Assembly: GCA_021736445.1 (NCBI GenBank)
Contig: JAIPGA010000005.1
Coordinates: forward strand, 1 to 56,217
Source of the DNA: Synergistales bacterium
GTDB taxonomy: Bacteria > Synergistota > Synergistia > Synergistales > Aminiphilaceae
Length of the DNA stretch: 56,217 nt
Direction of reading: 5' to 3'
Below the pieces are notes generated by a model, which saw only the letters and a program-made list of their open reading frames with translations, made no database searches and was not told where the DNA came from. The translations under genes were made by a program, and so were the position numbers. Shown here one piece after another: positions 14,521 to 56,101 of the stretch (within the stretch, counting starts at the first letter, position 1; each line of letters opens with the position of its first letter).

Positions 14521-14524
14521 TCCC

Positions 14525-19060: not shown

Positions 19061-19279
19061 CACCGGGAAGGCATGCATGGAAACAATGCATTACGGTTGT
19101 GCTACAATGCAAGGCACAGTCATGACATGGCAGAGGGCACTGCAGCCGATGCCGCTGCAGGAGTCTGCCTGGTTGCGGAATGGGGGTGGTACCTCCGGAA
19201 GGAAGCAACAACGCAACTGCAGAGACAGCTGCTGGAGGGCTCCAACCGATATCGACAGGTACAGAAAGGGTGCATGCAC
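19061..19279 (+). promoter_or_regulatory. Leader of the BMP nucleoside-transport unit
   Basis: A -10-like TACAAT at 19103-19108 suggests a promoter; no good -35 is seen. About 165 bases of leader follow. They can form two hairpins: CTGCAG...CTGCAG around 19140-19160, and a larger one closed by GTTGC/GCAAC (about 19173-19208) that contains GGGGGTGGTACCTCC. The core GGGTGGTACC resembles the conserved T-box sequence, but no specifier stem or terminator is evident. A structured leader is plausible; its class is not established. Confidence 0.35.
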
Positions 19280-20278
19280 GTGAAACAGATGAAAGGTATT
19301 GCGGTACTGGCGCTCGTTGTCTGCCTCGCCGCCTTCGCCGCGGCGCCGGCCATGGCGGAATCCAAGGCTCCGGGTGACTACAAGATCGTCCTGCTCCTCC
19401 CTGGACCGATCAACGACCAGAGCTGGAACGCCACCAACTACAACGGCCTGGTGGCCTGCAACGAGAGCCTGGGCACCAATATGGAGTACGTGGAAAACGT
19501 CCAGGCCAGCGACTTCGAGTCCACCTTCCGGAACTACGGCGAAAGGGGCTACGACCTGGTGATGGCCGCCGGGACCCAGTTCGACGAAGCGGCCAACCGG
19601 GTGGCGCCCAACTACCCCGACACGGTTTACTGTGTGGTCAACGGGATGGTCACCGAGGCACCCAACGTCCGCCCCATCCTGCCCAAGGAGTACGAGGGCA
19701 GCTATCTCGGCGGGCTCATCGCCGGCTACACCACCGAGAGTGGCAAGATCGGTCTGGTCGGGGGCTTCCCGAACAAGCTGATGATCCGGCTGCTCAACAC
19801 CTACGAGCAGGCCGCCCGGATCGGCTCGCCCCAGGTGGAGGCCCTGCGGGCCTACGCCAACTCCTGGAGCGATGTCTCCCTGGGCAAACAGATGGCCGGC
19901 TCCATGATCGACAAGGGGGCCGACGTGCTCTTCTTCTACGCCAACCAGGTAGGGCTCGGAGCCATCCAGGCCGCCAAGGAGGAGGGCGTGAAGTTTGTCG
20001 GTTTCGCCAGCAACCAGAACGGCATCGCGCCGGAGACCGTCGTCGCCAGCGTCTACTTCGACTTCGAGGAGATGTACAAGTGGGCGGTGGGCAAGTTCAT
20101 GGACGGCTCCCTGAAACCGGAGGTCAACGAGGTAGGGATCGCCCAGGGTGTGGTCAAGGTGGCCTACACCGACGCGGTACCCCAGAAGGTCAGGGACACG
20201 GTCAGTCAGGCCGAGAAGGCCATCGCCGGCGGCACACTGGCCCGGTTCCTCTCCCAGTTCCCGGAATCCCTGGACTAG
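19280..20278 (+). CDS. BMP/PnrA-family nucleoside-binding protein of ABC importer
   Basis: The 332-residue product is a periplasmic solute-binding protein of the basic membrane protein (Med/PnrA) family. Characterised members bind purine nucleosides. It has a typical signal peptide ending AMA before ESKAPGDY and no lipobox cysteine at the right place, so it is probably soluble in the periplasm. The mature part opens with KIVLLLPGPINDQSWN, typical of the family, and has the two-lobed layout expected (VKFVGFASNQNG...). GTG 19280 is preferred over ATG 19274 because AAAGGG lies nine bases upstream of it. A strong terminator follows, so it is probably made in excess over the membrane components downstream. 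Confidence 0.88.
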   Translation: MKQMKGIAVLALVVCLAAFAAAPAMAESKAPGDYKIVLLLPGPINDQSWNATNYNGLVACNESLGTNMEYVENVQASDFESTFRNYGERGYDLVMAAGTQFDEAANRVAPNYPDTVYCVVNGMVTEAPNVRPILPKEYEGSYLGGLIAGYTTESGKIGLVGGFPNKLMIRLLNTYEQAARIGSPQVEALRAYANSWSDVSLGKQMAGSMIDKGADVLFFYANQVGLGAIQAAKEEGVKFVGFASNQNGIAPETVVASVYFDFEEMYKWAVGKFMDGSLKPEVNEVGIAQGVVKVAYTDAVPQKVRDTVSQAEKAIAGGTLARFLSQFPESLD

Positions 20279-20297
20279 CCGACAGCAGAACCACTCG

Positions 20298-20332
20298 CAA
20301 CACCCTTCCTGATGGAAGGGTGTTGTTTTTTT
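20298..20332 (+). terminator. Rho-independent terminator after the BMP gene
   Basis: CAACACCCTTCC and GGAAGGGTGTTG form a perfect 12-bp stem with a four-base loop (TGAT), followed by seven T. It separates the binding-protein gene from the ATPase and permease genes. Partial read-through would explain unequal expression of the transporter parts. Confidence 0.92.
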
Positions 20333-20358
20333 CTCCATTCCCGGATTTCGTGTACTAT

Positions 20359-21921
20359 ATGGGAAGCCTTGGGAAAAGGAGGCATCACGCCATCGATACC
20401 GCCCTTGCAATGCACGGGATTACCAAACTCTTTCCCGGCACGCTGGCCAACGACCGGGTGGACCTTGATGTGGGCAAAGGAGAGGTCCTCGCGCTGCTCG
20501 GGGAAAACGGCGCCGGCAAGACCACACTGATGAAGATCCTCTACGGGATGTACCAACCCGACGAAGGGGAGATCCGCATCGACGGGAATCCCATCGCCAT
20601 CCGCTCCCCCCAGGACGCCATGAGACGGGGCATCGGGATGATCCACCAGCACTTTACACTGATCCCCGTCCACTCCGTAGTGGAAAACATCCTCCTCGGC
20701 GGGGGACCGCCGGGGCAGCGACCCCCCAAACCGCGGGAAGCAGCGGAACAGATCCGCGAGCTGGGACAGCGCTACGGCCTGGAGGTGGACCCCTGGGCGC
20801 TGGTCCGCCAGCTCCCCGTAGGACACCAGCAGCGGGTGGAGATCCTCAAGGCGCTCTACCGCGAGGCGCAGGTCCTCATCATGGACGAGCCCACGGCGGT
20901 ACTCACCCCCCAGGAGACAGAGAGCCTCTTCGGCTTCATCCGGGAGTTCACCGAATCGGGCCGCTCGGTGATCTTCATCACCCACAAGCTCGGCGAGGTC
21001 ATGTCCATCGCCGACCGGATCACCGTCATGCGCAACGGTCGGGTGGCGGGAACCGTAGCCAAAGCCGAGGCTGACGAGCACAGTCTGGCCAGGATGATGG
21101 TGGGCCGCGATCTGCATCCTCCCCAGCGTGACGACAACCAGCGCCCCGGCGCGGCGGTCCTCGAGATCGACGGTCTTTCCCTCCGCGGCGACCGGGGCAA
21201 CCGGGTGGTCCATCAGCTGGACCTCCAGGTCCGCACCGGGGAGATCTTCGGCATCTGCGGCGTCAGCGGCAACGGCCAGGAGGAGCTGGCCGAAGCGGTC
21301 TGCGGCCTCCGCAGTGCGGAAGAGGGCTCCATCACCCTTCATGGGCGACGCGTCGAAAACCAGTCACCGCGGGAGATGATCCGGGAAGGTGTGGGCTATA
21401 TCCCCGCCGACCGTCTTCGGGAAGGCCTGGTGCCGGAGATGTCGCTGGCGGAGAACCTGATCCTCAAAAGCCCTTCGGATCCGCCCTACGCCCGAGGGGG
21501 GGTTCTCCGCTGGCCGGAGATCTACGAACGCGCGGGGGAAGAGGCCGAGGCCTTCTCCATCAAAGCACCGGCGCTGGGTTCCAAAACCCACACCCTCTCC
21601 GGGGGCAACCAGCAGAAGGTGGTGGTGGCCAGGGAGATCAGGATCGGCACCACCCTCCTGGTGGCGGTGCAGCCAACCCGCGGTCTGGATCTGGGAGCGG
21701 CCGACTACGTCCACTCGGTCCTGCTGGAGGAGCGCCGGAAGGGAAAGGCCATCCTGCTGATCTCCACGGAGCTGACGGAGATCATGGCGCTCTCCGACCG
21801 GATCGGCGTGATCTACGAGGGACGGATCGCGGGCACCTTCGACAGGGACGACGCCGACGTCCAGACACTGGGACTGCTCATGGCGGGGATTGGGGGGAAA
21901 CGCAATGGCACCACAGGATAA
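20359..21921 (+). CDS. Duplicated ABC ATPase for nucleoside import (BmpB/NupO/RbsA-like)
   Basis: This protein of about 520 residues has two ATP-binding cassettes. Domain one has Walker A GENGAGKTT, a divergent signature region (QLPVGHQQRVEIL) and Walker B VLIMDEPTAVLTP. Domain two has a degenerate Walker A (GVSGNGQEEL), signature LSGGNQQKVVVAREI and QPTRGLD in place of a full Walker B. This asymmetry is usual for CUT2/BMP-type importers. The start is uncertain. ATG 20359 overlaps a likely -10 (TACTAT); ATG 20410 lacks a ribosome site; the only good site, AGGAGG (20377-20382), points to an in-frame ATC at 20392. It is coupled to the two permeases that follow. Confidence 0.9.
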   Translation: MGSLGKRRHHAIDTALAMHGITKLFPGTLANDRVDLDVGKGEVLALLGENGAGKTTLMKILYGMYQPDEGEIRIDGNPIAIRSPQDAMRRGIGMIHQHFTLIPVHSVVENILLGGGPPGQRPPKPREAAEQIRELGQRYGLEVDPWALVRQLPVGHQQRVEILKALYREAQVLIMDEPTAVLTPQETESLFGFIREFTESGRSVIFITHKLGEVMSIADRITVMRNGRVAGTVAKAEADEHSLARMMVGRDLHPPQRDDNQRPGAAVLEIDGLSLRGDRGNRVVHQLDLQVRTGEIFGICGVSGNGQEELAEAVCGLRSAEEGSITLHGRRVENQSPREMIREGVGYIPADRLREGLVPEMSLAENLILKSPSDPPYARGGVLRWPEIYERAGEEAEAFSIKAPALGSKTHTLSGGNQQKVVVAREIRIGTTLLVAVQPTRGLDLGAADYVHSVLLEERRKGKAILLISTELTEIMALSDRIGVIYEGRIAGTFDRDDADVQTLGLLMAGIGGKRNGTTG

Positions 21922-23035
21922 CACCCCAGGGGAGAACGCCTCCCCCCTGCAGAAGCGTGTGAAGGCACGGGACCGCTCGATCTCCATGCTCCTCTGGCCG
22001 CTCTTCTCCGTGGCCTGCGGTCTGGCCGCCAGCGGTCTCATGATGATGCTGCTGGGGAAAAATCCGCTGGCTGTCTACGGAACACTCTTCGGCTACGCCT
22101 TCCGGGATCTCTACAACGTGGCCGACATCTTCGCCAAGGCCGCCCCGCTGATCCTCACCGGCCTCGCCTTCGGCTTCGCCTTCCGCTCCACCCTCTTCAA
22201 CATCGGCGGCCAGGGGCAGTTCTACCTCGGCTGCGTGGGCGCCGCATCCTGCGCCCTGGCCTTCGGGAACCTTCCCGCCTTCCTCCTGCTCCCCCTCTGT
22301 CTGGGGGCGAGCATCCTGGCCGGCGGCGCCTGGGGCGCCTTCGTGGGCTTCGCCAAGGCCCGCTTCCAGGCCAACGAGTTTCTCGTCAGCATGATGTCCA
22401 CCTACGTGGCCATCGCGGTGATGAATTTCCTCCTCCGGGGACCTCTCAAGGAGAGCAAAGGGGAATACCCGCAGACCGACGTGATCGCCGAGAGCGGCTG
22501 GATCCCCACAATGATCCCCCACACCAGGCTGCACTGGGGCTTTGTGATCGCCCTGGCTGCGGCGGTGCTGGCCTATATCGTCCTCTGGCGGACGAGCCTG
22601 GGATTCAGGATCCGCGCCGTGGGGATGAACCGGGACGCCGCCCGCTACGCCGGGGTGGACGAGAAGCGCATCTTCATCGTCGTCTTTTTTCTCAGCGGCG
22701 GCTTCGCCGGACTGGCCGGGTTCATGGAGGTCAACGGCATCCAGCACATGCTGGTGCAGGGATTCAACCCCATGCTGGGGGCCGAAGGCATCGGTATCGC
22801 CATCCTCGGCAACGCCCATCCGCTGGGCATCGTCCTCTCGGCGCTGCTCTTCGGCGCCCTCAAGGTGGGCGGCACCCTGGTGGTGCAGACATCGGCCATT
22901 CCAGCCAGTATCATCGGGATCATGGAGGGTTTCGTGATGGTCTTCGTGCTGCTCTCCTACGCGCTGCAGGACAAGCTGGCGGTACGGCGGAAAAAACGGG
23001 ATATCCAGTCGCGGAAGGAGGGTGACAGCCAATGA
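21905..23035 (+). CDS. Nucleoside ABC transporter permease 1 (YufP/NupP-like)
   Basis: This 376-residue inner-membrane permease has about nine to ten hydrophobic segments after a basic N-terminal stretch. Features of the branched-chain/BMP permease family (BPD_transp_2) include RSTLFNIGGQGQFYLG, the EFLVSMMSTYVA region and RAVGMNRDAARYAG, the last probably contacting the ATPase. The ATG at 21905 is favoured by GGGGGG seven bases upstream; it lies within the ATPase gene (17-base overlap). With the second permease it would form the membrane channel for nucleosides delivered by the BMP protein. It overlaps the second permease by four bases. Confidence 0.9.
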   Translation: MAPQDNTPGENASPLQKRVKARDRSISMLLWPLFSVACGLAASGLMMMLLGKNPLAVYGTLFGYAFRDLYNVADIFAKAAPLILTGLAFGFAFRSTLFNIGGQGQFYLGCVGAASCALAFGNLPAFLLLPLCLGASILAGGAWGAFVGFAKARFQANEFLVSMMSTYVAIAVMNFLLRGPLKESKGEYPQTDVIAESGWIPTMIPHTRLHWGFVIALAAAVLAYIVLWRTSLGFRIRAVGMNRDAARYAGVDEKRIFIVVFFLSGGFAGLAGFMEVNGIQHMLVQGFNPMLGAEGIGIAILGNAHPLGIVLSALLFGALKVGGTLVVQTSAIPASIIGIMEGFVMVFVLLSYALQDKLAVRRKKRDIQSRKEGDSQ

Positions 23036-23952
23036 TGCTCACCGGTTTGCTGGCCCGGGCACTGCAGATGAGCACGCCGCTGATGATCGGTGCGCTGGCC
23101 GAGGTCTACGCCCAGCGCACCGGAGTGATGATCATCGCCATCGAGGGCATCTTCCTGATGGGCGCCTGGGGCGGTTTTGTCGGCGCCTACCTGTCGGGCA
23201 GCCTGCTGGCCGGCTTCGCCCTGGCCATGGCGGTGGGGACGCTCTCCGCGCTGGTCTACGCCACGCTGACCATCAAACTCAAACAGCACCAGATCGTCAC
23301 GGGGACAGCCTTCAACATCTTCGCCGCGGGGGTGGCGCTCTACCTCTACCGGGTGCTCTTCGGGGTGCCGCTGCTGCCGCTCACCGTGGATCCCCTGCCC
23401 AGCCTGGCCATCCCGCTGCTGTCGGAGATCCCCGTCATCGGCAAGGCGCTCTTCGACCAGAACATCCTCACCTATCTGACCTTCCTTCTCCTTCCGGCGG
23501 GGTACTGGGTGCTCTTCAGGAGCCGGGTGGGACTCATCATCCGCTCCACCGGCGAGAACCCCGAGGCGGTGGACGCCGCAGGCATCAGTGTGGAGAAGGT
23601 GCGGTTCCTCACAACCCTCTTCGCCGGGGCGCTGGACGGACTGGCCGGCGCCTTCTACTCCCTGGGATTCCTGGGCATGTACACCAACGACATCATCGGG
23701 GGACGGGGCTGGATCGCCTTCGCCATATGCTTCCTGGGCAACTGGAACCCCCTGGGGGCGCTGCTGGGGGCCCTGGTCTTCGGCCTGGCCGACGCGACGG
23801 CCATCGTCCTGCAGACCTCGGGCGTCAAGCTCATCCCCAACGAGTTCCTCATCGCCATCCCCTATATCCTCACCATCGTCGCCACCATGGCCCGAAAGCA
23901 CTTCAATGTCCCCACCAAGCTGGGGACACCCTACATCAAGGAACGAAAATAG
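23032..23952 (+). CDS. Nucleoside ABC transporter permease 2 (YufQ/NupQ-like)
   Basis: The 306-residue permease is the partner of the preceding protein. It has about eight to nine membrane segments and the family marks TPLMIGALAEVYAQRTGVM near the start, IAIEGIFLMGAW, and RSTGENPEAVDAAGISVEK, the likely ATPase-docking loop. Start ATGATG overlaps the permease 1 stop by four bases. The operon ATPase-permease-permease together with the upstream BMP gene completes a nucleoside importer. The dihydropyrimidinase gene follows after 18 bases, linking uptake directly to ring hydrolysis. Confidence 0.9.
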   Translation: MMLTGLLARALQMSTPLMIGALAEVYAQRTGVMIIAIEGIFLMGAWGGFVGAYLSGSLLAGFALAMAVGTLSALVYATLTIKLKQHQIVTGTAFNIFAAGVALYLYRVLFGVPLLPLTVDPLPSLAIPLLSEIPVIGKALFDQNILTYLTFLLLPAGYWVLFRSRVGLIIRSTGENPEAVDAAGISVEKVRFLTTLFAGALDGLAGAFYSLGFLGMYTNDIIGGRGWIAFAICFLGNWNPLGALLGALVFGLADATAIVLQTSGVKLIPNEFLIAIPYILTIVATMARKHFNVPTKLGTPYIKERK

Positions 23953-23970
23953 CAGCGAGGAGGTGTCTCG

Positions 23971-25323
23971 ATGTACGATCTGGTCATACAAGAGGGAACG
24001 GTGGTCACCCCCCAGGGGTCCTTCCAGGCTGACGTGGCCTGCAGCGATGGGCGGATCGCCGCCCTGGGGATGGACCTTCAGGGGGAGACCACCATCAATG
24101 CGGAAGGGAGGTATCTGCTGCCGGGGGTGGTCGACTCCCACACCCACATGTCGCTCCATCTGCCCGCAACCACCTCCAGCGACGACTTCCACACCGGCAC
24201 AAAGGCGGCGGCCTGCGGCGGCGTGACGACGATCATCGATTTCACCGGCGGGGCGCCGGAGCGTCCTCTGGCCGAGGATATCGCCAACCGCAGGAGGGAG
24301 GCGGAGCCTGCCGTGGTGGACTACGCCTTCCACGCCGAGATGATCGGGTGGCGTGCCGGCGAGGAGGCACAGATCCGCGCGGCTGTCCGGGAGGGCGTGA
24401 CCAGCTTCAAATTCTTCACCGCCTACGGCGCGTCGGGACGCCGCTCCGACAACGGGGTGCTCTACCACGCCATGAAGGAGATCGCCGACCTGGACGCCCT
24501 GGCAGTGGTCCACGCCGAGGACGACGCCATCATCGCGTCGCTGGAAGGGGCGCTCTCCGAAGAGGGGAAAGGCCGGATGGAAGCGCTGGCGGACACCAGA
24601 CCGGATTTCTGCGAGGCCTCGGCGATCGGCCAGGTGGCCTTTCTGGCGGAACTCACCGGGGCCCGTACCCATATCGTCCACGTCAGCTCCGGTCTCGGCG
24701 CCGAACAGGTCATGGCGGCCCGGGAACGGGGTGCGCCGGTCACCGGCGAGACCTGCCCGCAGTACCTCCTGCTCACCGAGGAATGCTACCGCCGGCCCAG
24801 GGGGCACCGCTACGCCGCGAGCCCGGCCCTGCGGACACCGGTGGACCAGGAGGATCTCTGGGAATCCCTCCGTGAGGGGATCCTCCAGACGGTGGTCACC
24901 GACCACTGTCCTTTCACCAACGCCCAGAAAGAGTGGAAAGGGGACTTCCGCAAGCTCCCCTACGGGCTGCCGGGGGTGGAGACACTGCTCCCCCTGGTCT
25001 ATTCCGAGGGGGTCACCACAGGCCGCATCACCTTGGAACAGATGACGGCGCTGCTTTCCGCCAATACGGCGCGGATCTTCGGTCTCTCCCCGCGCAAGGG
25101 CGCCATCCAGCCCGGTTCCGACGCCGATCTGGTCATCTTCGACCCCCGGGCCGCCTGGACGGTGACCGCCGACAGCCTCCACATGCACACCGACTTCTCC
25201 CCCTACGAAGGACATCGGGTACAAGGCGCCGTGGAGACCACCATCTCACGCGGGGAGGTCATCTACAGCGACGGCAGCTGCATCGCCGAACGGGGCAGGG
25301 GGAGGTTTCTGCACCGACGGTAA
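23971..25323 (+). CDS. Dihydropyrimidinase/hydantoinase (D-hydantoinase family)
   Basis: A 450-residue cyclic amidohydrolase. The binuclear metal site is complete: His57 and His59 in DSHTHM, carbamylated Lys147 in SFKFFTAYG, His181 in VVHAEDD, His237 in HIVHVSS and Asp311 in VTDHCPF. Such enzymes open dihydropyrimidines or hydantoins to N-carbamoyl amino acids. In anaerobic purine clusters the homologue is called HyuA. AGGAGGTG lies upstream of the ATG. It is the last gene of the transporter operon and has a terminator downstream. No ureidopropionase or carbamoylase is found in the window, so the product must be processed elsewhere. Confidence 0.92.
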   Translation: MYDLVIQEGTVVTPQGSFQADVACSDGRIAALGMDLQGETTINAEGRYLLPGVVDSHTHMSLHLPATTSSDDFHTGTKAAACGGVTTIIDFTGGAPERPLAEDIANRRREAEPAVVDYAFHAEMIGWRAGEEAQIRAAVREGVTSFKFFTAYGASGRRSDNGVLYHAMKEIADLDALAVVHAEDDAIIASLEGALSEEGKGRMEALADTRPDFCEASAIGQVAFLAELTGARTHIVHVSSGLGAEQVMAARERGAPVTGETCPQYLLLTEECYRRPRGHRYAASPALRTPVDQEDLWESLREGILQTVVTDHCPFTNAQKEWKGDFRKLPYGLPGVETLLPLVYSEGVTTGRITLEQMTALLSANTARIFGLSPRKGAIQPGSDADLVIFDPRAAWTVTADSLHMHTDFSPYEGHRVQGAVETTISRGEVIYSDGSCIAERGRGRFLHRR

Positions 25324-34215: not shown

Positions 34216-34327
34216 ATAGGCTCCCAGGTATGTAGGATACCGTTACGGAGATTGGTTCTCAACACCTCGCTTCAAGAAAAGGGGGTAGAGTACAATAGGG
34301 AGAATGCTGTACAACTGGAGGGCATCC

Positions 34328-35398
34328 ATGTCTGACGGACTCGGCACCTGGCTTCAGTCATGCCGGACACCCACCGCTCGAAAAATCGCCGATGTCCCCT
34401 GCAGGGTTCTGGTGACGGGAAGCAGGGGGAAGAGCAGCGTGACCCGTCTCATCCACGCCGGCCTCTCGGCGGAGGTGTCCGGCTTTGCACGGATCACCGG
34501 GGTTCTGCCCAGGGAGATCGCACCTGACGGTTCCATGTCGCTCATCCTGCGTCACGGGCCGGCCCATGTCGCCGAGATGCGCTGGTGGCTCCGCAGCCTC
34601 CCTGCCCGGACGGAGGGGATCGTGCTGGAAAACAGCGCGGTCAGTCCGGAGCTCCAGCCGTTGGCGTCACGCTGGCTCGCCCCGCACATCGTCGTGATGA
34701 CATCACTCCGGGCCGACCACCCCGAACAGTGGGGACCCTCCATCCGTGGGGCGCTCCATGCTGTCGCGGCAGGCATACCGGAGGGCGCCACGGTGGTGCT
34801 CCAGGGCGACGATGCAGACCGCAGGGAGGTGCGTCGACTGCTGGAGACCGGGAAATCCTGCCGGCTTCTGCCCGCCTCCGCCGCAACGGAAGACCACCGC
34901 TCGAAAAACCGCGCCCTCGCCGAGACCGCCTGCAGTGTTCTGGGTTTCCGTTCTTCGGCCGCAACCGCCGCAATAGGGGGGCTCCCTCCCGATTTCGGCG
35001 ACTTCCAGATCTTCCGCAGCAAGACCACGGAGCTCGCCGGCGCCTTCACGGCCAACGATCCGGAGAGCACGGAGCTGCTCTTTACATCCCTGGGGTGGCC
35101 GCCCGGGGAGACCACGGTGCTCTACAACCACCGCACCGACCGCCCGCAGCGGTGGCGGCAGTTCAAACCCTGGCTCGCGGGGAGGCCCTGGCAGAGGGTG
35201 CTGGTCACCGGCGACCGCCCTTTCCGTTCCGGCAAGGTGGGGACCTTCGTCCGCTGCCGCGACGCCGGGGAGCTGGACCGCTGCATCCGCGGCCTTCCCC
35301 GCGTCTTCGGCTGCGGCAACATCGCCGGCGCCCCCCTGCACTGGCTTCTGGACCGGTATCCCGGGGCTCTCTCCGCGGAAGGGAGGCGCAACCTATGA
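34328..35398 (+). CDS. pgsB: Poly-gamma-glutamate synthase ligase subunit PgsB/CapB
   Basis: A 356-residue amide ligase. Residues 27-40 (VLVTGSRGKSSVTR) contain the P-loop typical of PgsB/CapB and related Mur-ligase-like enzymes, in which ATP activates the carboxylate of glutamate. The conserved VLENSAVSPELQ and MTSLRADHPEQWG segments follow at the expected spacing. It is somewhat shorter than the Bacillus enzyme (about 390 residues). The start at 34328 is preferred because GGAGGG lies five bases upstream; the ATG at 34304 would fall next to the predicted transcription start. It overlaps pgsC by four bases. With PgsC it should polymerise glutamate at the membrane. Confidence 0.87.
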   Translation: MSDGLGTWLQSCRTPTARKIADVPCRVLVTGSRGKSSVTRLIHAGLSAEVSGFARITGVLPREIAPDGSMSLILRHGPAHVAEMRWWLRSLPARTEGIVLENSAVSPELQPLASRWLAPHIVVMTSLRADHPEQWGPSIRGALHAVAAGIPEGATVVLQGDDADRREVRRLLETGKSCRLLPASAATEDHRSKNRALAETACSVLGFRSSAATAAIGGLPPDFGDFQIFRSKTTELAGAFTANDPESTELLFTSLGWPPGETTVLYNHRTDRPQRWRQFKPWLAGRPWQRVLVTGDRPFRSGKVGTFVRCRDAGELDRCIRGLPRVFGCGNIAGAPLHWLLDRYPGALSAEGRRNL

Positions 35399-35829
35399 GC
35401 CCCTACGAAGCGGCGACCATCGGGATCGGCATCGCTCTGGGGATGTTCTACTACGCCCGAACGGGATGGGGGTGCGGCGGGATCATCACACCGGGGTTCC
35501 TGGCCCTCTCTCTCAACGCTCCCTCGACACTGCTGCTCTCGCTGGGGGTGGCCGCGGCCGTGGCGTTGCTCCTCCGCGGGGCGGTCCGGGTCCTGGGTGT
35601 CTTCGGCCGCCAACGGATGGCTCTGGCCCTCCTGCTGGCGCTGCTGCTTCGTCTCGGCCTCTCGCTGCACTGGGCGGCCGATTCGCTCTGGCTCGGCTGG
35701 GTCATCCCCGGGTTGATCGCCGCCGATCTGGAACGTCAGGGACCGGTGCACACCATCGCCGCCGCCTCGGCCACGGCGGGAGCAACCGCCATGATCACCG
35801 CAGTCGGGGGGTGGCTCCTGTGGCCGTAA
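35395..35829 (+). CDS. pgsC: Poly-gamma-glutamate synthesis membrane protein PgsC/CapC
   Basis: This 144-residue, strongly hydrophobic protein matches PgsC in size (149 residues in Bacillus) and in the feature MFYYARTGWGCGGIITPGF-like N-terminal loop between helices 1 and 2. It has four to five membrane segments. PgsC forms the membrane part of the synthase with PgsB. GGGAGG lies ahead of the ATG. It overlaps pgsB by four bases and the next gene by about ten bases, so all three are translationally coupled. Confidence 0.82.
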   Translation: MSPYEAATIGIGIALGMFYYARTGWGCGGIITPGFLALSLNAPSTLLLSLGVAAAVALLLRGAVRVLGVFGRQRMALALLLALLLRLGLSLHWAADSLWLGWVIPGLIAADLERQGPVHTIAAASATAGATAMITAVGGWLLWP

Positions 35830-36857
35830 AGCACCCACTGCCGAACAAAAAAGCCAGGTCAACAGGATGGCTTCTGCTGCTGGGCATCCTGCTGCCACTC
35901 CTCTGGTACGGGGGGAGTATCGGTTTCCTCGACAACGAAGAGCAGCGGCTCTGGGAACGGGTGCGCAGGGCGGAGCGATTCCTCCATCAGTGGCGCCGGG
36001 AGCAAGGCTGCGGGGCTTCGGAGGAGGCCGACCCATGGAAACTGGGCCTGATCGGCTACGAATGGAGCCCCCTGACAACCACCCTGGGCAGCCTGCCGGC
36101 CAAGCGCACCGCCTGCCACCCTTCCTGGGCCGTCAGCTCCCTGGAGTGGTTCGACCGCCTCCAGCTCGCCGAGGGCGACCGAATCGCCATTCTCAGCTCC
36201 TCCTCCTTCCCGGGATTGCTGCTCAACCTCCTGGCGGCCGCGGAATCCCGAAACCTGGAGATCCTGCTCATCCTGTCGCTGGGGGCCTCCACCTGGGGCG
36301 CCAATGTGCCGGAGTGCCCCTGGCCGACTCTGGCGGAGACGCTCCGGCGACAGGGACTGCTCCACACAAAAGCCCAATGGCTGACACCGGGAGGGGGTGG
36401 GGAACACGGAGGCGGGGTCCCCCCGGAAGGGATGGCGCTGATGCGGGAAACGGCCCGGCTCACCGACATCCCCCTGATCGTCGGAGACGATCTCCAGTCG
36501 GTGATCCGCTGGAAGATGGAGCGCCTCGCCACATTCCGGCCGGATCTGGTGGTCTCCATCGGGGGCTCCCACGCCAATATGGGGAGCGACGAGGCGGTTC
36601 TCCAGCTGCCCGGGGGACTCCTCCGTCCCGAAATGCAGGACAATGCGGGAAACGGCGTGATCGGCAAGGCACTCGGTGAGGGAGTCCCGGTTCTCCATCT
36701 CCTGAATCTGGAGGGATTGGCGCGGAAACGCGGCATCCCCTGCAACGCCCCACCGGCGCCCTTCCATATCGACAGGAGGTCCATGATGCTCTTTCTGCCC
36801 GGCATCGCCCTCTTTTTCACGATCCTCCTGCGACACAGACGCTGGGAAAAGGTATAA
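35820..36857 (+). CDS. pgsW: Poly-gamma-glutamate system protein PgsW
   Basis: The 345-residue product matches the family called poly-gamma-glutamate system protein (PgsW), which accompanies pgsBC in several anaerobes that lack the usual pgsA. It has an N-terminal membrane helix (STGWLLLLGILLPLLWYGG), a large soluble domain probably outside the cytosol (motifs AILSSSSFPGLLLNLLAA and VVSIGGSHANMG), and a C-terminal helix (SMMLFLPGIALFFTILL) before a basic tail. Start is GTG 35820 inside the pgsC end, with GGGGG eight bases upstream. Its biochemical role in polymer export or processing is unknown. Assignment rests on remembered family features and on context. Confidence 0.75.
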   Translation: MAVKHPLPNKKARSTGWLLLLGILLPLLWYGGSIGFLDNEEQRLWERVRRAERFLHQWRREQGCGASEEADPWKLGLIGYEWSPLTTTLGSLPAKRTACHPSWAVSSLEWFDRLQLAEGDRIAILSSSSFPGLLLNLLAAAESRNLEILLILSLGASTWGANVPECPWPTLAETLRRQGLLHTKAQWLTPGGGGEHGGGVPPEGMALMRETARLTDIPLIVGDDLQSVIRWKMERLATFRPDLVVSIGGSHANMGSDEAVLQLPGGLLRPEMQDNAGNGVIGKALGEGVPVLHLLNLEGLARKRGIPCNAPPAPFHIDRRSMMLFLPGIALFFTILLRHRRWEKV

Positions 36858-49562: not shown

Positions 49563-50225
49563 TCAGAAGATCCACCGGTGCTCGAGGAACGCCATGGTCA
49601 ACCCCCATGTCCCCAGGCCCACCTTGAGGGCGATCAGGATATTGAGCAGGGGGATCCATCCGCCGCTGAGGAGCGTGCCGTAGGCGCCTGCCGGAGGGGC
49701 GATCCCCCCACAGGTCGCCAGAGCGATCAGAAGGATCGCCGCCCAGGAGAGACGTTCGGCGGAATCCGCTGCAGGTGTTTGCAATCGGACGGTAAGGCGG
49801 TTTTGCATCCCTATGAGCGACTGAGCCACCAAAGAGGTCCCCACCGCCACGCCGGCGGCAAAGCCTCCCCCGGGCTCCAGGTGTCCGCCCAGGGCCAGAA
49901 TGCAGCCGAAGAGCAGCGCAAAATAGGCAGCCCCCTTGAAGACCACCCCGACCACCGGATCGGATGACACCACATAGCTCTGCGGCGGCCTGCCGCCCCC
50001 AAGAAAATGGAGGGAGCCGAGCACGGCAACGGCAAAAACGACCACCTCGAAGGCGGTATCGTAGAGCCGGTTGTGGAGATAGATAGCGGCAACACCGTTG
50101 GGCACACCCCGCTCGGTGCTGACGAGAACGGCATTGTCTTTCCCCGTCTCCCCACAGGGATGCAGCGCGACCACAATAAAGATAAGGACCAGCGCCACAA
50201 GATAGCCCCTACGCACGACGCCCAC
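49563..50225 (-). CDS. mrpB: Mrp antiporter subunit: MbhE-like region fused to MrpB
   Basis: A 220-residue membrane protein. Residues 1-75 look like the MbhE-type piece that usually forms part of the C-terminal end of MrpA (NRLYDTAFEVVVFAVAVLG). Residues 85-220 are a normal MrpB/MnhB domain (SSDPVVGVVFKGAAYFALLF, GGHLEPGGGFAAGVAVGTSL). The start GTG 50225 has AGAGGT six bases upstream; GTG 50216 is the alternative. It overlaps the preceding gene by up to 17 bases and is last in the operon. MrpB is an obligatory part of the sodium/proton antiporter complex. Confidence 0.82.
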   Translation of the reverse strand: MGVVRRGYLVALVLIFIVVALHPCGETGKDNAVLVSTERGVPNGVAAIYLHNRLYDTAFEVVVFAVAVLGSLHFLGGGRPPQSYVVSSDPVVGVVFKGAAYFALLFGCILALGGHLEPGGGFAAGVAVGTSLVAQSLIGMQNRLTVRLQTPAADSAERLSWAAILLIALATCGGIAPPAGAYGTLLSGGWIPLLNILIALKVGLGTWGLTMAFLEHRWIF

Positions 50226-50925
50226 CAAGATACCTCTGTCGCAGTTCCACCACCGTCTCCCTCCCCCCGCCCTCCAGGAACCGAGCGAAGGTCTCCCGGA
50301 GGTCGCGGGCGTTCCGGGAGACCAGCAGCACGTAGGAACCGGTCTGCACGGTTCCCGGTTCCGCACCCTTCTCAAGTCCGGCCTTCTCACGCCGGGCGCT
50401 GAGGATGTCGAACCACCGGCCATCCTGCATGACCATCACCTTGGTCTCCACAACCGGGAAGGCGGCCACATCTTCGCCTTCATCGAAAGGCGACACAAAG
50501 GGACCGACGGCGGCCTCCACAACGCCGCTCCGGAGTGCATCGAGCAGCAGCCCCCGTTCCGTAAAGGCAACGAAACGCGGACGCACCCCGCAGGAATCAC
50601 CGAAAGCACGGAGAAGCTCCACCTCGTAGCCCGTAAGCGCCCTTTTGCCCTCGGAAACCAGCGGCGGCAGCTCCACATACCCCACCCGGAACTCCCCCGA
50701 AGAGGTGAAGACAATCACATAAAGCAGCGTCACCAGCAGCACACCCATCAACGCCTCCGTCACGGCCACATCGGGGGCTCCCATAAGGGCGTAGACAAGG
50801 GCCGCCAGAATCCCAAGCATCCCCCTGCCGATGATGGCGTGGAGGAGATGCCGCTGCCGCAGGGTCAGCACAGCCAGGAGGGGAAGCAGCAGAGCGACGC
50901 CGAGGACGGCCAAATCGGCAGTCAC
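50209..50925 (-). CDS. MbhD-like Mrp subunit fused to a family-3 solute-binding domain
   Basis: The 238-residue protein joins two unrelated parts. Residues 1-75 are three membrane helices of the MbhD/DUF4040 type, normally part of MrpA (HLLHAIIGRGMLGILAALVY, GAPDVAVTEA). From residue 79 it reads like lobe 1 of an amino-acid-binding SBP_bac_3 protein: FRVGYVELPPL, TGYEVELLRAFGDSCGV, LLLDALRSGVVEAAV. Residues 165-235 hold a shorter remnant ending in the family's terminal helix pattern (RFLEGGGRETVVELRQRYLG). The domain is about 157 residues instead of roughly 220, so most of lobe 2 seems missing. With three helices the domain would lie outside the membrane if the N-terminus is inside. GTG 50925 overlaps the mrpG stop (GTGA). 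Confidence 0.8.
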   Translation of the reverse strand: MTADLAVLGVALLLPLLAVLTLRQRHLLHAIIGRGMLGILAALVYALMGAPDVAVTEALMGVLLVTLLYVIVFTSSGEFRVGYVELPPLVSEGKRALTGYEVELLRAFGDSCGVRPRFVAFTERGLLLDALRSGVVEAAVGPFVSPFDEGEDVAAFPVVETKVMVMQDGRWFDILSARREKAGLEKGAEPGTVQTGSYVLLVSRNARDLRETFARFLEGGGRETVVELRQRYLGGRRA

Positions 50926-51209
50926 CGTCGGTCCCCCCGGTCCAGACCGCCGGAAAGGCCCCGGGCCAGCACAAAGGTGATGAACGGCCCCCACAGGAGG
51001 AGCGCCCCCAGGGCGATGCCCAGCGCAAGCCGCTCGCCGGGGAAGCGAAGCATCAGCCCACCGACAACCAGCACCGCTCCAATGGTATCGGAAACGCCGA
51101 GGTACTGGATCCGGACCACCAGGGGGCCGGGCAGACAGAAACGCACCGTTCCCCAGATCATACAGAACGTCCCCAGCGCGAGGAACGCAGCGCTCGCAAC
51201 AGATATCAT
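50922..51209 (-). CDS. mrpG: Mrp antiporter subunit MrpG/MnhG
   Basis: A 95-residue membrane protein with three helices, the size and order expected for MrpG. The LPGPLVVRIQYLGVSDTIGAV stretch corresponds to the family's conserved cytosolic loop region. It starts at an ATG overlapping the mrpF stop by four bases and ends in a GTGA overlap with the MbhD-like gene. It is a structural subunit of the cation antiporter. Confidence 0.85.
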   Translation of the reverse strand: MISVASAAFLALGTFCMIWGTVRFCLPGPLVVRIQYLGVSDTIGAVLVVGGLMLRFPGERLALGIALGALLLWGPFITFVLARGLSGGLDRGDRR

Positions 51210-51460
51210 CCGGTGTGCCCCCGTTCGAGGAAAAGCGCCAGCACGGCGACGCCCAGGTCCCCAAAGAGCAGGATGGCCAGCGCGGGCAACGTCACCCCAG
51301 GCCGCCCCGCGAGCTGTCCCCACACGAGCAGCAACAGCGACCCCTTGATGGAAAGCGAGCCGAAGACGACCACCTTCAGCCAGGTTTCACCGGCCCTTCC
51401 AAAAAACCCGACGAGCAGCACCATCAGGGCAAAGAGCGCACCCAGAACAGCCGTTGTCAT
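51206..51460 (-). CDS. mrpF: Mrp antiporter subunit MrpF/MnhF
   Basis: An 84-residue protein with three hydrophobic helices. The segment VVVFGSLSIKGSLLLLVWGQLAG followed by a last helix with ALAILLFGDLGVAVLALFL fits MrpF, including the acidic residue in helix 3. GAGGAGGGG lies before the ATG within the mrpE end; it overlaps both neighbours by four bases. Confidence 0.82.
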   Translation of the reverse strand: MTTAVLGALFALMVLLVGFFGRAGETWLKVVVFGSLSIKGSLLLLVWGQLAGRPGVTLPALAILLFGDLGVAVLALFLERGHTG

Positions 51461-51846
51461 TGTTTGCCCCTCCTCCCTCTCCAGAGGACATGCACCAGCA
51501 GTTCGCGGTGCAGTCGGTTCACACGGATCACCACCGTTTTCGGTGTCAGCGTCACCAGGTAGACCCGGGAGACAATGGCCCACAGCGAATCGTCGGAGAG
51601 CCGCTCCGTGCGGAACCACCACTGGTGTTTCCGGAAGCAGACCAGGACAAGGGACTCGCCGAGCGCACGCACCACCGCCGGACACAGGCGCGCCAGAAAG
51701 ACCAGCGTCCCGCCCCAGGGAAGCCGGCATCCCAGGAGCCGGTCCAGGAGAAAGCCGAATCCCACGCCGCAGAGCAGGAAGGCCCGATCCGACGTCCCCG
51801 CGAGGGCGATCCACAGCAGGATCCCAGCCGCTCCCACGGGCGTCAC
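51457..51846 (-). CDS. mrpE: Mrp antiporter subunit MrpE/MnhE
   Basis: A 129-residue protein with two to three N-terminal helices and a basic cytosolic domain. The C-terminal part carries the family features RTERLSDDSLWAIVSRVYLVTLTPKTVVI and a final HRELLVHVLW stretch. The start is GTG 51846, overlapping the mrpD stop (GTGA). It is shorter than Bacillus MrpE (158 residues), mostly at the N-terminus. It belongs to the antiporter complex. Confidence 0.84.
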   Translation of the reverse strand: MTPVGAAGILLWIALAGTSDRAFLLCGVGFGFLLDRLLGCRLPWGGTLVFLARLCPAVVRALGESLVLVCFRKHQWWFRTERLSDDSLWAIVSRVYLVTLTPKTVVIRVNRLHRELLVHVLWRGRRGKQ

Positions 51847-53276
51847 GGCAGCATCACCCCCAATGTCCCCGCCAGTACCAGCAGCGTCAGCCCGAGACAG
51901 TGCTCCAGCTCCTCCGGCCACTGGGGAAGCGCAAGGCGGCTCCGCCTCAGGAGAACGAGATAGAGCGACCACCCCAGGGCGATCAAGAGAAGGGATTTGA
52001 ACAGAGAACCCCAGCTCCAGTACCCCACAACCGCCTCCAGCGAGACCAGGGCGCCGAAGACGAGGAGATGATGGGGCGACGGGAGACGCCATTCCGCCCT
52101 GTGGAGACGAACAGGGATGAACAGCAGCTTGGCGAAGGAGAGCGCCGTGCCCAGCGCAGCCAGGGTCATCACCGCAAGCCGCCACCCTTCCAGCCCGTTG
52201 AGAATGGCCGCTTTCGCGCCAAAGGCTCCCAGCCCGGGCAGTCCCGAGATCGCCAGGGCGCCCAGAGCCAGAGGCAGCCATCGCTCCAGCGGAATGCCCG
52301 ACTCCTTGAGTCGCCCCAGGTCCCGTTCCTCCAGTGCGCCGGCCGAAAGGAAGAGCCAGGACTTGAAGAGCCCGTGGGCCAGTGCGTACAGCGCCCCTGC
52401 GGCGGGCACGGCGAGGATGAACCCCACCTGGGACATGGTGTGGTAGGCCAGCATCCTCTTGATATCTTTGGCGAAAACGGCGTAGAGCACACCGTAGAGC
52501 GCGCCCAGAGGAGCCACCACCGAAAGCATCCCGGCGGCAATGGGGGAAAGCATGGCGATACGCAGCAGCGGGATGACCCCCACCTTGACAATCACGCCGG
52601 AGAGCAGCGCCGAAACAGCGCTCTCCGCCTCGCCGTGGACCTCGGGCAACCAGAGCCCCATCACCCACACCCCGCCCTTGACGGAGAGCCCCACCACCAG
52701 CAGAGCGATCGGCACTACGGGAAGCGTGGCCACGGAATCCAGGGAAAAGCTGTTGCTGTGGCCGTAGGCGTAGAGCACGCCGAGCAGAGAGAGCATCATC
52801 CCCGCGTTGCCGATAATCAGGTACTTGATGGCCGACCAGGTCTGCCGCTCTTTGTTGCCCAGGCGGATCAGCAGAAAGGCGATGATCGTGGCGAGTTCCA
52901 CCGAGACAAAGATATTGAAGAGATCGTGGCTGATAAAAACGGCATTGACCGCACCGTGGAGGAAGGCAACCAGCGGTATGCCGAGGTCGGACAATGAGGA
53001 CATGCGGCGGGAGAGAACCACGGTCAGCATCACCAGTGCGCTCATCAGCACCGCAAGAAAGGCGACCCTGTCGAGGAGCAGCTCCACGCCGAAGGAACCC
53101 GAGAAGGAAAGGGAACACACCATGTGCCGCTGCAGCCCGGCGAGAGCGAGCAGCGCGTTGCCGCCGAAAAGCAGGGGGAGAGGCCATCTCCACCGAGCCC
53201 GGATAACGAGAAGAACAATGCCGAAAACAAAGGGGAGGAAGACAAAGGCGACGACACACGCAAACCCGCTGTTCAC
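51843..53276 (-). CDS. mrpD: Mrp antiporter subunit MrpD/MnhD (NuoN/M-like)
   Basis: A 477-residue polytopic protein with about 14 helices, homologous to the proton-pumping subunits of complex I. Marks include the glutamate in FVSVELATI, the lysine of VGLSVKGGVWVMGLWLPEVHGEAESAVSALLSG-type helix 7-8 region, and the histidine and lysines near AYHTMSQVG and LFKSWLFLSAG. It is the only large ion-translocating subunit encoded here, because the NuoL-like MrpA is absent from the window. GTG 53276 is chosen as start since GGGAGG lies eight bases upstream; GTG 53285 would touch that site. Confidence 0.92.
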   Translation of the reverse strand: MNSGFACVVAFVFLPFVFGIVLLVIRARWRWPLPLLFGGNALLALAGLQRHMVCSLSFSGSFGVELLLDRVAFLAVLMSALVMLTVVLSRRMSSLSDLGIPLVAFLHGAVNAVFISHDLFNIFVSVELATIIAFLLIRLGNKERQTWSAIKYLIIGNAGMMLSLLGVLYAYGHSNSFSLDSVATLPVVPIALLVVGLSVKGGVWVMGLWLPEVHGEAESAVSALLSGVIVKVGVIPLLRIAMLSPIAAGMLSVVAPLGALYGVLYAVFAKDIKRMLAYHTMSQVGFILAVPAAGALYALAHGLFKSWLFLSAGALEERDLGRLKESGIPLERWLPLALGALAISGLPGLGAFGAKAAILNGLEGWRLAVMTLAALGTALSFAKLLFIPVRLHRAEWRLPSPHHLLVFGALVSLEAVVGYWSWGSLFKSLLLIALGWSLYLVLLRRSRLALPQWPEELEHCLGLTLLVLAGTLGVMLP

Positions 53277-53289
53277 GCCAGCCACCTCC

Positions 53290-53643
53290 CTAACGGCGCC
53301 ATCGCCGTTCGACCCGTCTGCTGTCCAGGGTGTAGTGGCGCCGGGAAAGCTGCATCACCGAGACAATGAGCAGCGCCAGGATGGAAAAGCCGATCACGAT
53401 GGCCGTAACGATCACCGCCTGGGGCACGGGATCGGCCATCGTACCCGGGGCGGCCGGGGCGGCCAGGATAGGCGCCCGGCCGCCGTGCCAGGCTGAGAGC
53501 ACGTAGAGGCTGATGATACCGGTACTCATGATATCCATGGCGATCACCTTCATCAGGAGATTCCGTTTGATCAGTATTCCACCCAGGCCGATAGCGATCA
53601 CCGCCAGAAGAGCGATACGGACTGCGGTACAGACACCCGTCAT
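53290..53643 (-). CDS. mrpC: Mrp antiporter subunit MrpC/MnhC (NuoK-like)
   Basis: A 117-residue protein with three helices. KRNLLMKVIAMDIMSTGIISLYVLSAW in helix 1-2 and PVPQAVIVTAIVIGFSILALLI in helix 3 match MrpC/NuoK. It is the first gene of the operon. The ATG is preceded by AAGGGGGCGTGGAG. A promoter-like element with a large inverted repeat is located just upstream. Confidence 0.9.
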   Translation of the reverse strand: MTGVCTAVRIALLAVIAIGLGGILIKRNLLMKVIAMDIMSTGIISLYVLSAWHGGRAPILAAPAAPGTMADPVPQAVIVTAIVIGFSILALLIVSVMQLSRRHYTLDSRRVERRWRR

Positions 53644-53891: not shown

Positions 53892-54977
53892 TCAGTCGCC
53901 GAGCCGCAGGATCTCCTCTACGTCGAGACCGGCGATCCCGAGCTTCTCCAGCGTCGTTCCTTCCGTAAAGTAGTCCTTTTTGTGCAGCATCGAGGCGAGG
54001 GAGACGGCCATCCTGCTGACATCAGGCCTGTACCCGGCCTTCTCCGCCAGCTCTACGGAGGGAGCGACGAGCCCCGGGACATCCTCGGTGAGATAGCGGC
54101 TCCAGATACTCTGGCCGACAAGATCCTTGTAGGGCGACTCCGGGCTCTGGACATACTCGTAGATCGTGGCGGCGTCGTTCTGCCCGTAGTAGGTCTTCAG
54201 ATAGGAGAGGCAGGGCTCCAGCGTCAGCCCCAGACGCTCCCCGATCTGCAGGCGCTCTTCGTCCATCCGCATCATCAGCTCGGAGACCGAAGGGGTGATG
54301 CCGTCCATATAGTGCCGGAAGGTGTCGCTCTCCCGTTCGATGGCTCCGTAGCTGAGCAGCACCGGCAGCGGGTGGAGGGTGTAGTTGATGTTCTCCAGGT
54401 CCATCTCCAGGAGGTTGCCCGCTCCGGAGTATTCGATGTACCCCTTGAAGATAGCGTTCAGCTCGTCGAGGATCGCCTGGTTGTCCGCAGATGGTGATGT
54501 GGCCACCTTCATGGCGAGCTTGCGTTTGAAGACCATCACCTTGTCGTGGGTGTGGATCCGGCAGGCGTAGGGCATGGTGGAGGTCTCGGAGATGGAGATA
54601 CGGGCCGTCGAGCTCCTCTGTTTCATCATCTGCTTCAGCAGCAGGCCGCCGTAGTTCCCCGGAACGAGCAGCACATGCTGGCCGTCCTTCAGGTGGGGAA
54701 TCATGGCCCGGAAGATCGGCTCGTGGGCGAAGGAGGGCACCACCACCAGCAGATAGGCGGCGTTCTCCATAGCCTCGGCGATATCCATGGTCACCGCGGC
54801 GAGCTCCCCGCCGGCTGTGATGTCGCCTTCCATATACAGCTTCCGCTCTTCACGGAGCTTCCTGTAGTCCTCGGTGGCCTCCAGCGGTTCCCACATGGAC
54901 ACCGGCCGGCCTGTCGCGGCGATCTGAGCCGCCCAGGCCCTGGCGCCGTTTCCACTCCCCAACACGGCAAATTTCAT
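53892..54977 (-). CDS. Opine/octopine dehydrogenase family protein
   Basis: The 361-residue enzyme has an N-terminal Rossmann domain (MKFAVLGSGNGARAWAAQIA) and the C-terminal all-helical NAD/NADP octopine/nopaline dehydrogenase domain (residues 185-350). Characteristic parts are LVPGNYGG after strand 4, ETSTMPYACR, and NYTLHPLPVLLSYG with the catalytic-site histidine. Such enzymes interconvert an amino acid plus 2-oxo acid with an N-carboxyalkyl amino acid. With a TRAP binding protein directly upstream, a catabolic role on an imported opine-like compound is a reasonable inference. GGAAGGGGGAGG lies before the ATG. Confidence 0.88.
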   Translation of the reverse strand: MKFAVLGSGNGARAWAAQIAATGRPVSMWEPLEATEDYRKLREERKLYMEGDITAGGELAAVTMDIAEAMENAAYLLVVVPSFAHEPIFRAMIPHLKDGQHVLLVPGNYGGLLLKQMMKQRSSTARISISETSTMPYACRIHTHDKVMVFKRKLAMKVATSPSADNQAILDELNAIFKGYIEYSGAGNLLEMDLENINYTLHPLPVLLSYGAIERESDTFRHYMDGITPSVSELMMRMDEERLQIGERLGLTLEPCLSYLKTYYGQNDAATIYEYVQSPESPYKDLVGQSIWSRYLTEDVPGLVAPSVELAEKAGYRPDVSRMAVSLASMLHKKDYFTEGTTLEKLGIAGLDVEEILRLGD

Positions 54978-55012
54978 GGAACCTCCCCCTTCCTCTCAAG
55001 GGCTCGCTATTG

Positions 55013-55039
55013 AAAAAAGGGGCGGAATCCCTCCGCCCC
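55013..55039 (-). terminator. Terminator between TRAP binding protein and opine dehydrogenase genes
   Basis: On the minus strand GGGGCGGA and TCCGCCCC form a perfect 8-bp stem with a 5-base loop, followed by six T. It sits 31 bases past the binding-protein stop, so the dehydrogenase needs read-through or its own promoter. Confidence 0.88.
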
Positions 55040-55069
55040 CGGACGATGCTGCCTTTGCCGTTGCAGCGG

Positions 55070-56101
55070 TTACTTCTCGATGACGTATTCCTCCATGCCG
55101 CACCGCTCCATGACACCGTTGGCCCACTCCAGACCGATATCCTTCATGATCACCGGCCAGACCTGGGTGCGGACCTTGTCGGCGATCTCGGCGAGCTGGC
55201 CCTCCTCGGGGCGGACAATCTCGACACCGTAGTCGGCAAGCTTCTGCTCGTTCTTCGCCTGCTGGGGCTGGGCGTTCTCCCAGCGGCGCTCCTCGAAGGC
55301 GGCGGCCGCATCGAGGACACCCTGACGGTCTTCATCGGAAAGGCCCTCGAAGGTCTGCTTGTTCATGTAGAGGTACCACTGCTCGAAGTGGGTGTTCGCC
55401 GGCAGGTAGTAGTCGATGACATCGCGGAACTGGTTGTAGTAGCCCTCGGCGCCGGAACCGACGATCCCGTTGACCACACCGGTCTGGAGCGAGGTGAAGG
55501 CCTCGGAGAAGGGAATCGGCGTCGCCTGGTAGCCCATCGCCTGGGCGGTGAGCTGGAAGGTCTTCATCGGCGGAACGCGGACCTTGGTGTTCTTTTTCAC
55601 TTCAGGGTCGTAGGGGGCGTCGCCGGGCGCCTTGCTGAGCGCCACACCGCCGAAGTAGACGGGATAGCTGGAGAGGTACTGGATGTTCTGCCTGGCAAAG
55701 AGGTCGGCGGCCACCTTCATCAGCTCGCTGCCCGTGAAGAAATGCTCCCGGGCCTCCTCCCAGTTGGTGACAAAGTAGGGAAGGTACACTATCTGAACCC
55801 GTTTGTCGGCAGCCACACCGGGAGGCTGGCAGGCCATCTCCACGGCGCCGACGCTGATCCGCTCGTGGACCACTGTGTAGTCGCCGAGCTGGCTGGCCGG
55901 GTAGACCTCGATCTTGATCCGGCCGTCGGTGTTCTCCGCCACCTTGTCGGCGAACCAGTGCAGGTCCTTGTCGATGGGCGCGCCCTGGGGACGCACGTGG
56001 GACAGCTTCCATACCTGCTCCGCCCTGGCTTCAGCGACACCGCCGACAGCCAGCACAAAGGCCATCACGACAACAAACAGAACGAGAAAACTCCGTTTCA
56101 T
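55070..56101 (-). CDS. TRAP transporter solute-binding protein (DctP family)
   Basis: A 343-residue periplasmic binding protein. The signal peptide ends ARA before EQVWKLSHV. DctP-family features are the LHWFADKVAENTDGRIKIEVYPASQLG segment, the conserved arginine in NTKVRVPPMKTF (carboxylate binding) and the FSEAFTSLQTGVVNGIVG motif. It therefore probably binds an organic acid. The membrane subunits (DctQ, DctM) are not in the window and may be encoded to the right. AAGGAGG lies before the ATG. The terminator after it separates it from the opine dehydrogenase gene. Confidence 0.92.
   Translation of the reverse strand: MKRSFLVLFVVVMAFVLAVGGVAEARAEQVWKLSHVRPQGAPIDKDLHWFADKVAENTDGRIKIEVYPASQLGDYTVVHERISVGAVEMACQPPGVAADKRVQIVYLPYFVTNWEEAREHFFTGSELMKVAADLFARQNIQYLSSYPVYFGGVALSKAPGDAPYDPEVKKNTKVRVPPMKTFQLTAQAMGYQATPIPFSEAFTSLQTGVVNGIVGSGAEGYYNQFRDVIDYYLPANTHFEQWYLYMNKQTFEGLSDEDRQGVLDAAAAFEERRWENAQPQQAKNEQKLADYGVEIVRPEEGQLAEIADKVRTQVWPVIMKDIGLEWANGVMERCGMEEYVIEK

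Follow-up and report, generated by a model that had tools for sequence, protein, structure and literature searches.

Mrp antiporters, the MBH and MBS complexes and complex I have a common membrane module, and we know of no described regulatory domain on this module. In substrate-binding proteins (SBPs), lobe 2 forms an insertion within lobe 1, and two crossing strands connect the lobes. SBP domains of the SBP_bac_3 family are normally exported. A glutamate on the Na+/H+ path of the membrane module corresponds to E58 of MbsD, E69 of MbhD and E706 of MrpA (PMC7419157, PMC7684303). In the solved structure of MBS, MbsD has a C-terminal extension that enters the cytoplasmic peripheral arm and, in the dimer, contacts the arm of the partner monomer (PMC7684303). 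Irregular mrp clusters of cyanobacteria have been classed as group 3, and in E. coli one of them functions as a Na+/H+ antiporter (PMC5703873, a review).

The window analyzed here is a stretch of 56,217 nucleotides from a Synergistales bacterium. It contains a seven-gene operon with the order C-D-E-F-G-[MbhD-SBP]-[MbhE-B], in which a domain derived from SBP_bac_3 is joined to an Mrp/Mbh subunit in a real fusion. The features of the operon and of the fusion protein are listed in Table 1.

The operon and the MbhD-SBP fusion

The neighboring genes give the MbhD subunit an Mrp/Mbh-type setting, since MrpC, MrpD, MrpG and MrpB were found by Pfam, MrpF was matched weakly and MrpE was placed by its position and motif. 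Canonical Mrp systems have two antiporter-like subunits, MrpA and MrpD, but only one PF00361 protein is encoded in this operon. The whole source genome has two PF00361 genes, located on two contigs, and the MbhD of its second Mrp-type operon is plain. With its seven genes, the operon would encode an Mrp-type antiporter of Na+ (or K+) and H+ in which the NuoL-like half of MrpA is lacking. A sequence motif points to an MbhE part in the gene that follows the fusion. This gene is apparently the same fusion as MbsE of the MBS complex, which, judging by its helix grouping, probably holds MbhE and an MrpB part in one chain.

Other gene groups were noticed in the window. Upstream of the operon and on the same strand, positions 53892-56101 hold a gene of the opine-dehydrogenase type and a TRAP binding protein (DctP) that stands alone. 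Three plus-strand frames at 34304-36857 resemble, by eye, a poly-gamma-glutamate synthesis set (PgsB/PgsC-like). Also by eye, 9590-25323 resembles a molybdenum-hydroxylase/purine-catabolism cluster with a BMP-type ABC transporter and a dihydropyrimidinase-like gene.

Table 1. Features of the Mrp-type operon and of the MbhD-SBP protein. Positions are those of the window; parts of the domain are given in residues of the fusion protein.
Feature	Location	Strand	Basis
MbhE + MnhB/MrpB fused subunit, 217 aa	49563..50216	-	Pfam MnhB, E=6e-12; NCBIfam PRK12567 (subunit B), E=2e-46
MbhD-SBP fusion gene	50209..50925	-	Pfam MbhD and SBP_bac_3; orthologues with the same architecture
MbhD part, residues 1-75, three transmembrane helices	50701..50925	-	Pfam; AlphaFold2 helices
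SBP_bac_3-derived domain, residues 76-238	50212..50700	-	Profile match, alignment, AlphaFold2, Foldseek
Lobe 1, N-terminal part	residues 76-153		
First crossing strand, with T161 and K162	residues 153-165		
Lobe-2 stub, with D173	residues 166-191		
Second crossing strand	residues 192-203		
C-terminal helices	residues 207-233		
MrpG	50922..51209	-	Pfam PhaG_MnhG, E=4e-8
MrpF	51206..51460	-	Pfam MrpF, weak (E=0.015); operon position
MrpE (probable)	51457..51846	-	Inferred from open frame size, place and the TLTP(K/E)T motif of other operons
MrpD, the sole antiporter-like (PF00361) subunit of the operon	51843..53285	-	Pfam Proton_antipo_M, E=4.6e-33
MrpC	53290..53643	-	Pfam Oxidored_q2, E=3e-17

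The fusion gene runs from 50925 to 50209 with its stop included and encodes 238 amino acids from a GTG start. The coordinates in the earlier note were correct, with the gene on the minus strand; the plus-strand reading of 50209-50925 is not the gene. The GTG start overlaps the stop of MrpG by 4 nt, and the 3' end overlaps the start of the MbhE-MnhB gene by 8 bases. Residues 12-75 match MbhD (PF13244, E=3.2e-16) with 59.6 bits, which is above the gathering cut-off of 27.2. The three MbhD-like helices that had been read from the sequence were seen in the AlphaFold2 model at residues 2-23, 27-47 and 51-75. The MbhD part contains the motif APDVAVTEA. By this motif and the published work, E57 in its TEA is the equivalent of MbsD E58, MbhD E69 and MrpA E706 (PMC7419157, PMC7684303). 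The position of E57 is occupied by Q in about a third of distant copies.

The C-terminal domain has common ancestry with SBP_bac_3 (PF00497) and shares its lobe 1 fold. On its own, the fusion protein matches this family over residues 86-234 with 24.1 bits (E=3.3e-5), just under the gathering score of 26.4. Several relatives score 26.7-38.4 bits, with two distant fused relatives at 38 bits, over the cut-off. Each of the 10 sequences in an alignment of the domain matches SBP_bac_3, and the profile built from them found solved SBPs with E values down to 2.7e-13. Thus, the weak score of the single protein becomes decisive because of the added relatives. AlphaFold2 with 39 sequences gave a mean pLDDT of 89.1 and values of 90-97 for nearly all blocks of the domain, compared to a mediocre 71 in an earlier run with 6 sequences. 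The top Foldseek matches of the model were all SBP_bac_3-fold proteins (E about 1e-7), and the model of the earlier run had additionally matched 6gpc, the isolated domain 1 of TmArgBP. The family-3 binding fold that the earlier note had expected was therefore found by profile, model and structural search.

Most of lobe 2 is lost from this domain. Only 11 residues are left between T161 and D173, followed by a short helix, which agrees with the initial description of lobe 1 plus a shortened second part. The stub retains one acidic residue, D173. Since lobe 2 was cut to this stub, the domain is about 60 residues short, as was seen before. SBP_bac_3 proteins have two lobes that close on a ligand, and with lobe 2 nearly gone the fusion protein does not.

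Distribution and trimming of the fusion

A full-length profile (A1) was used for the Synergistota genomes, and a profile spanning the junction of TM3 and the domain (A3) was used for two other phyla with a threshold of E<=1e-8. With A1, the fusion was found in 6 of 188 Synergistota genomes, one copy being truncated, and the full-length orthologues in other Synergistota are 48-60% identical. With A3, it was found in 70 of 103 genomes of the first of the other phyla; this count includes shortened forms, matches that cover the first part of the domain only and a few weaker matches, genome G435 among them, that may be ordinary SBPs. An ornithine carbamoyltransferase near the operon in this phylum is nearly identical to 1vlv, which we take to come from T. 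maritima, and the phylum therefore contains Thermotoga. The third phylum, which is probably Bipolaricaulota, had the fusion in 54 of 100 genomes, again with shortened forms included and with some matches to the first part of the domain only. The search for the same fusion in other genomes was thus successful in three phyla at least, and the fusion is not confined to the source genome.

The gene order of the source operon also occurs in a Thermotoga genome and is shared by cyanobacteria. Other Thermotogota have the order E-F-G-[MbhD-SBP]-[MbhE-B]-C-D. The gap between T161 and D173 is about 11-12 residues in Synergistota and Thermotogota (median 12 in the latter) and has a median of 51 residues in the third phylum, where a larger part of lobe 2 is kept. 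Some single loci are unusual. In L174 of the third phylum (11468-14407), two tandem MrpD-like genes come after the fusion in the operon. In the Thermotoga phylum, the fusion gene of L090 (G432:C13:225162-225766) is split over two frames, and its first piece holds an internal TGA and TAA, so that it could be a pseudogene or an assembly error. A Synergistaceae MAG has a truncated copy of 177 aa (L008:1381-1911, minus strand; L035) that has lost most of the second half of the domain and is a stage of decay.

Proteins with a shorter extension were found in 43 of the 117 genomes of the G234 phylum. The two that were scanned both belong to the NCBIfam family PRK07377. One control genome, for which Synechococcus elongatus was reported first, has a match to this family over the cut-off, and the G234 phylum is therefore the cyanobacteria. 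PRK07377 (NF005628, NF005630) is annotated as "hypothetical protein" and likewise consists of MbhD plus a C-terminal extension, encoded in the mrp operon at the same position, where MrpA is expected (L046, L047, L141-L170). The fusion protein matches it over residues 4-138 (E=7e-23) with 81.6 bits, below the curated cut-off of 151. The cyanobacterial extensions, putative remnants of about 110 residues, are shorter than the domain of the source genome and have no Pfam SBP match.

In a tree of the MbhD part, built from 74 columns only, a branch with SH-aLRT 93 sets apart 28 unfused copies, nearly all from Synergistota; a further unfused row on a long branch (L076) is placed outside this group. 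The proteins of cyanobacteria cluster with the fusions of Synergistota (SH-aLRT 98). In a direct profile comparison, the cyanobacterial extension is only marginally similar to the SBP domain (hhalign E=0.0012, probability 19%), and its putative SBP origin therefore rests mainly on this clustering and on the shared operon order. Together, these data suggest that the cyanobacterial extension is a decayed form of the fusion. They also suggest one old fusion followed by trimming, with which the 74-column tree is compatible without being proof. The PRK07377 family deserves a proper name, and the fusion suggests its origin.

Location and possible role of the domain

Averaged within each of the four groups, K/R residues number 1.2-2.8 for the TM1-2 loop and 2.0-3.5 for the 12 residues that follow TM3, with 0-0.04 for the TM2-3 loop between them; the source-genome protein alone has 1 K/R versus 2 D/E just after TM3. 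By the positive-inside rule, this pattern places the domain in the cytoplasm. The C-terminus of MbsD is on the same side in MBS, and a cytoplasmic location is strongly indicated by the two together. The domain is also under purifying selection, with less constraint than the membrane part. Its dN/dS is mostly 0.05-0.45 in close pairs, with lower values for MbhD, and it evolves several times faster than MbhD.

We consider that the fusion is probably the MbhD of an Mrp-type antiporter lacking MrpA, equipped with a one-lobed cytoplasmic accessory domain of SBP origin that docks or stabilizes the complex and/or modulates it. The domain at the C-terminus of this MbhD descends from an amino-acid-binding protein and has in essence a single lobe. 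It is predicted to lie where the cation path faces the cytoplasm, on the subunit with the key glutamate, and would stabilize or dock the complex at this site, by analogy with the MbsD tail in MBS, and/or modulate antiport by conformational coupling. It would not act as a binding protein for uptake. In some lineages the domain may be dispensable, as it evolves faster than MbhD and is truncated in the Synergistaceae MAG.

A possible but doubtful alternative is that the domain senses a solute in the cytoplasm. A residual cleft made of D173, T161, K/R162, G99 and G141 would bind a small solute of the cytoplasm (such as an amine, amino acid or ion) and gate Na+/H+ exchange. Among the 39 sequences, G99 and G141 are invariant and T161 and D173 are kept in more than 90%, and nearly all copies have K or R at position 162. 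D173 aligns with the Asp that starts the lobe-2 helix in solved SBPs, and this Asp pairs with the ligand amino group in SBPs of the HisJ type. In addition, copies from the third phylum retain more of lobe 2, and a single lobe can bind, since TmArgBP domain 1 (lobe 1) in isolation binds arginine, at about 3 uM (PMC7589609). However, G99 and G141 are conserved in SBPs generally and may serve the fold, D173 may only cap helix 174-180, and the near loss of lobe 2 in Synergistota and Thermotogota precludes a Venus-flytrap closure.

The conservation of the pocket, which had been proposed as a check, gave a divided answer. D173, T161 and K/R162 are kept, but there is no conservation at the position of the carboxylate-binding Arg in the "TPER" motif of SBPs, leaving the amino-group Asp as the one retained member of the SBP_bac_3 ligand pair. 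Because of the lost Arg, classic amino-acid binding appears unlikely, while the binding of another solute or ion is possible. We regard it as rather improbable that a widespread and undescribed class of Mrp-type antiporters uses a natural one-lobed cytoplasmic domain to sense an internal solute and set Na+/H+ exchange. If true, such a class would link metabolite level to ion homeostasis.

Another possible explanation is that the domain is a decaying leftover of an old fusion without a present function, caught at different stages of loss in different lineages. This would fit the graded reduction from the third phylum (median gap of 51) through Synergistota and Thermotogota (11-12) to the cyanobacterial remnants, as well as the truncated Synergistota copy and the faster evolution of the domain compared to MbhD. 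However, dN/dS is well below 1 in all groups, the reading frames are open in over 100 genomes, and the C-terminal helices and the T-K/R...D motif are conserved. We find this explanation improbable overall, and the idea of a structural leftover, raised in the earlier note, is unlikely for most copies given the purifying selection.

The same note had considered a domain outside the cell, where an external amino acid would gate exchange. The usual export of SBP_bac_3 domains would agree with this, but such a location is very probably wrong, since the charge pattern in all fused groups and the side on which MbsD ends in MBS both contradict it and the AlphaFold2 helices include no additional transmembrane segment between MbhD and the domain. 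The window is a draft contig. Nothing speaks for a frameshift, assembly or annotation artefact joining two genes, and this can be dismissed, since the same in-frame fusion, which the note had allowed might be absent from close relatives, is present in relatives and recurs in many independent genomes, single-contig ones included. An oddity of the source genome alone is ruled out by the three phyla that carry the fusion.

The preferred reading, an accessory domain for docking or modulation, has several implications. A folded cytoplasmic domain on the subunit with the key glutamate would be a testable handle on regulation or assembly. Its presence in Thermotogota, including species close to T. 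maritima, is favorable for structural work. In addition, the fusion is a natural example of how a binding protein with two lobes can be pared down to one and put to use within the cell.

Comparison with known systems

Both parts of the protein belong to known families. A natural fusion of the two, a nearly lost lobe 2 and a position in the cytoplasm were not found in the papers searched, in which subscription journals were largely uncovered, and these papers also gave no account of an SBP domain on Mrp/Mbh complexes, in agreement with the earlier note. Rather than an accident of a single genome, the domain seems to be an undescribed part of the antiporter for control or docking.

The MbhD part has the same three helices, APDVA..E motif and key glutamate as MbhD and the C-terminal part of MrpA (PF13244; Mrp, MBH, MBS), and the same neighbors, MrpG and MbhE-MrpB. 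Known MbhD members, in contrast, end within about 20 residues of TM3, as unfused copies do, or run into MbhE in MrpA, and no described member has an SBP domain. The C-terminal domain has the same lobe 1 fold with C-terminal helices as SBP_bac_3 proteins and domain 1 of TmArgBP. Unlike SBP_bac_3 proteins, it stands behind a membrane subunit, is predicted to be cytoplasmic, has nearly lost lobe 2 and lacks the carboxylate Arg. Domain 1 of TmArgBP is a one-lobed form made by man, whereas the one-lobed domain described here is natural. The C-terminal tail of MbsD in the MBS dimer likewise extends this subunit into the cytoplasm and is used in assembly (PMC7684303), but it is short and Trp-rich, in contrast to the folded SBP-type domain of the fusion.
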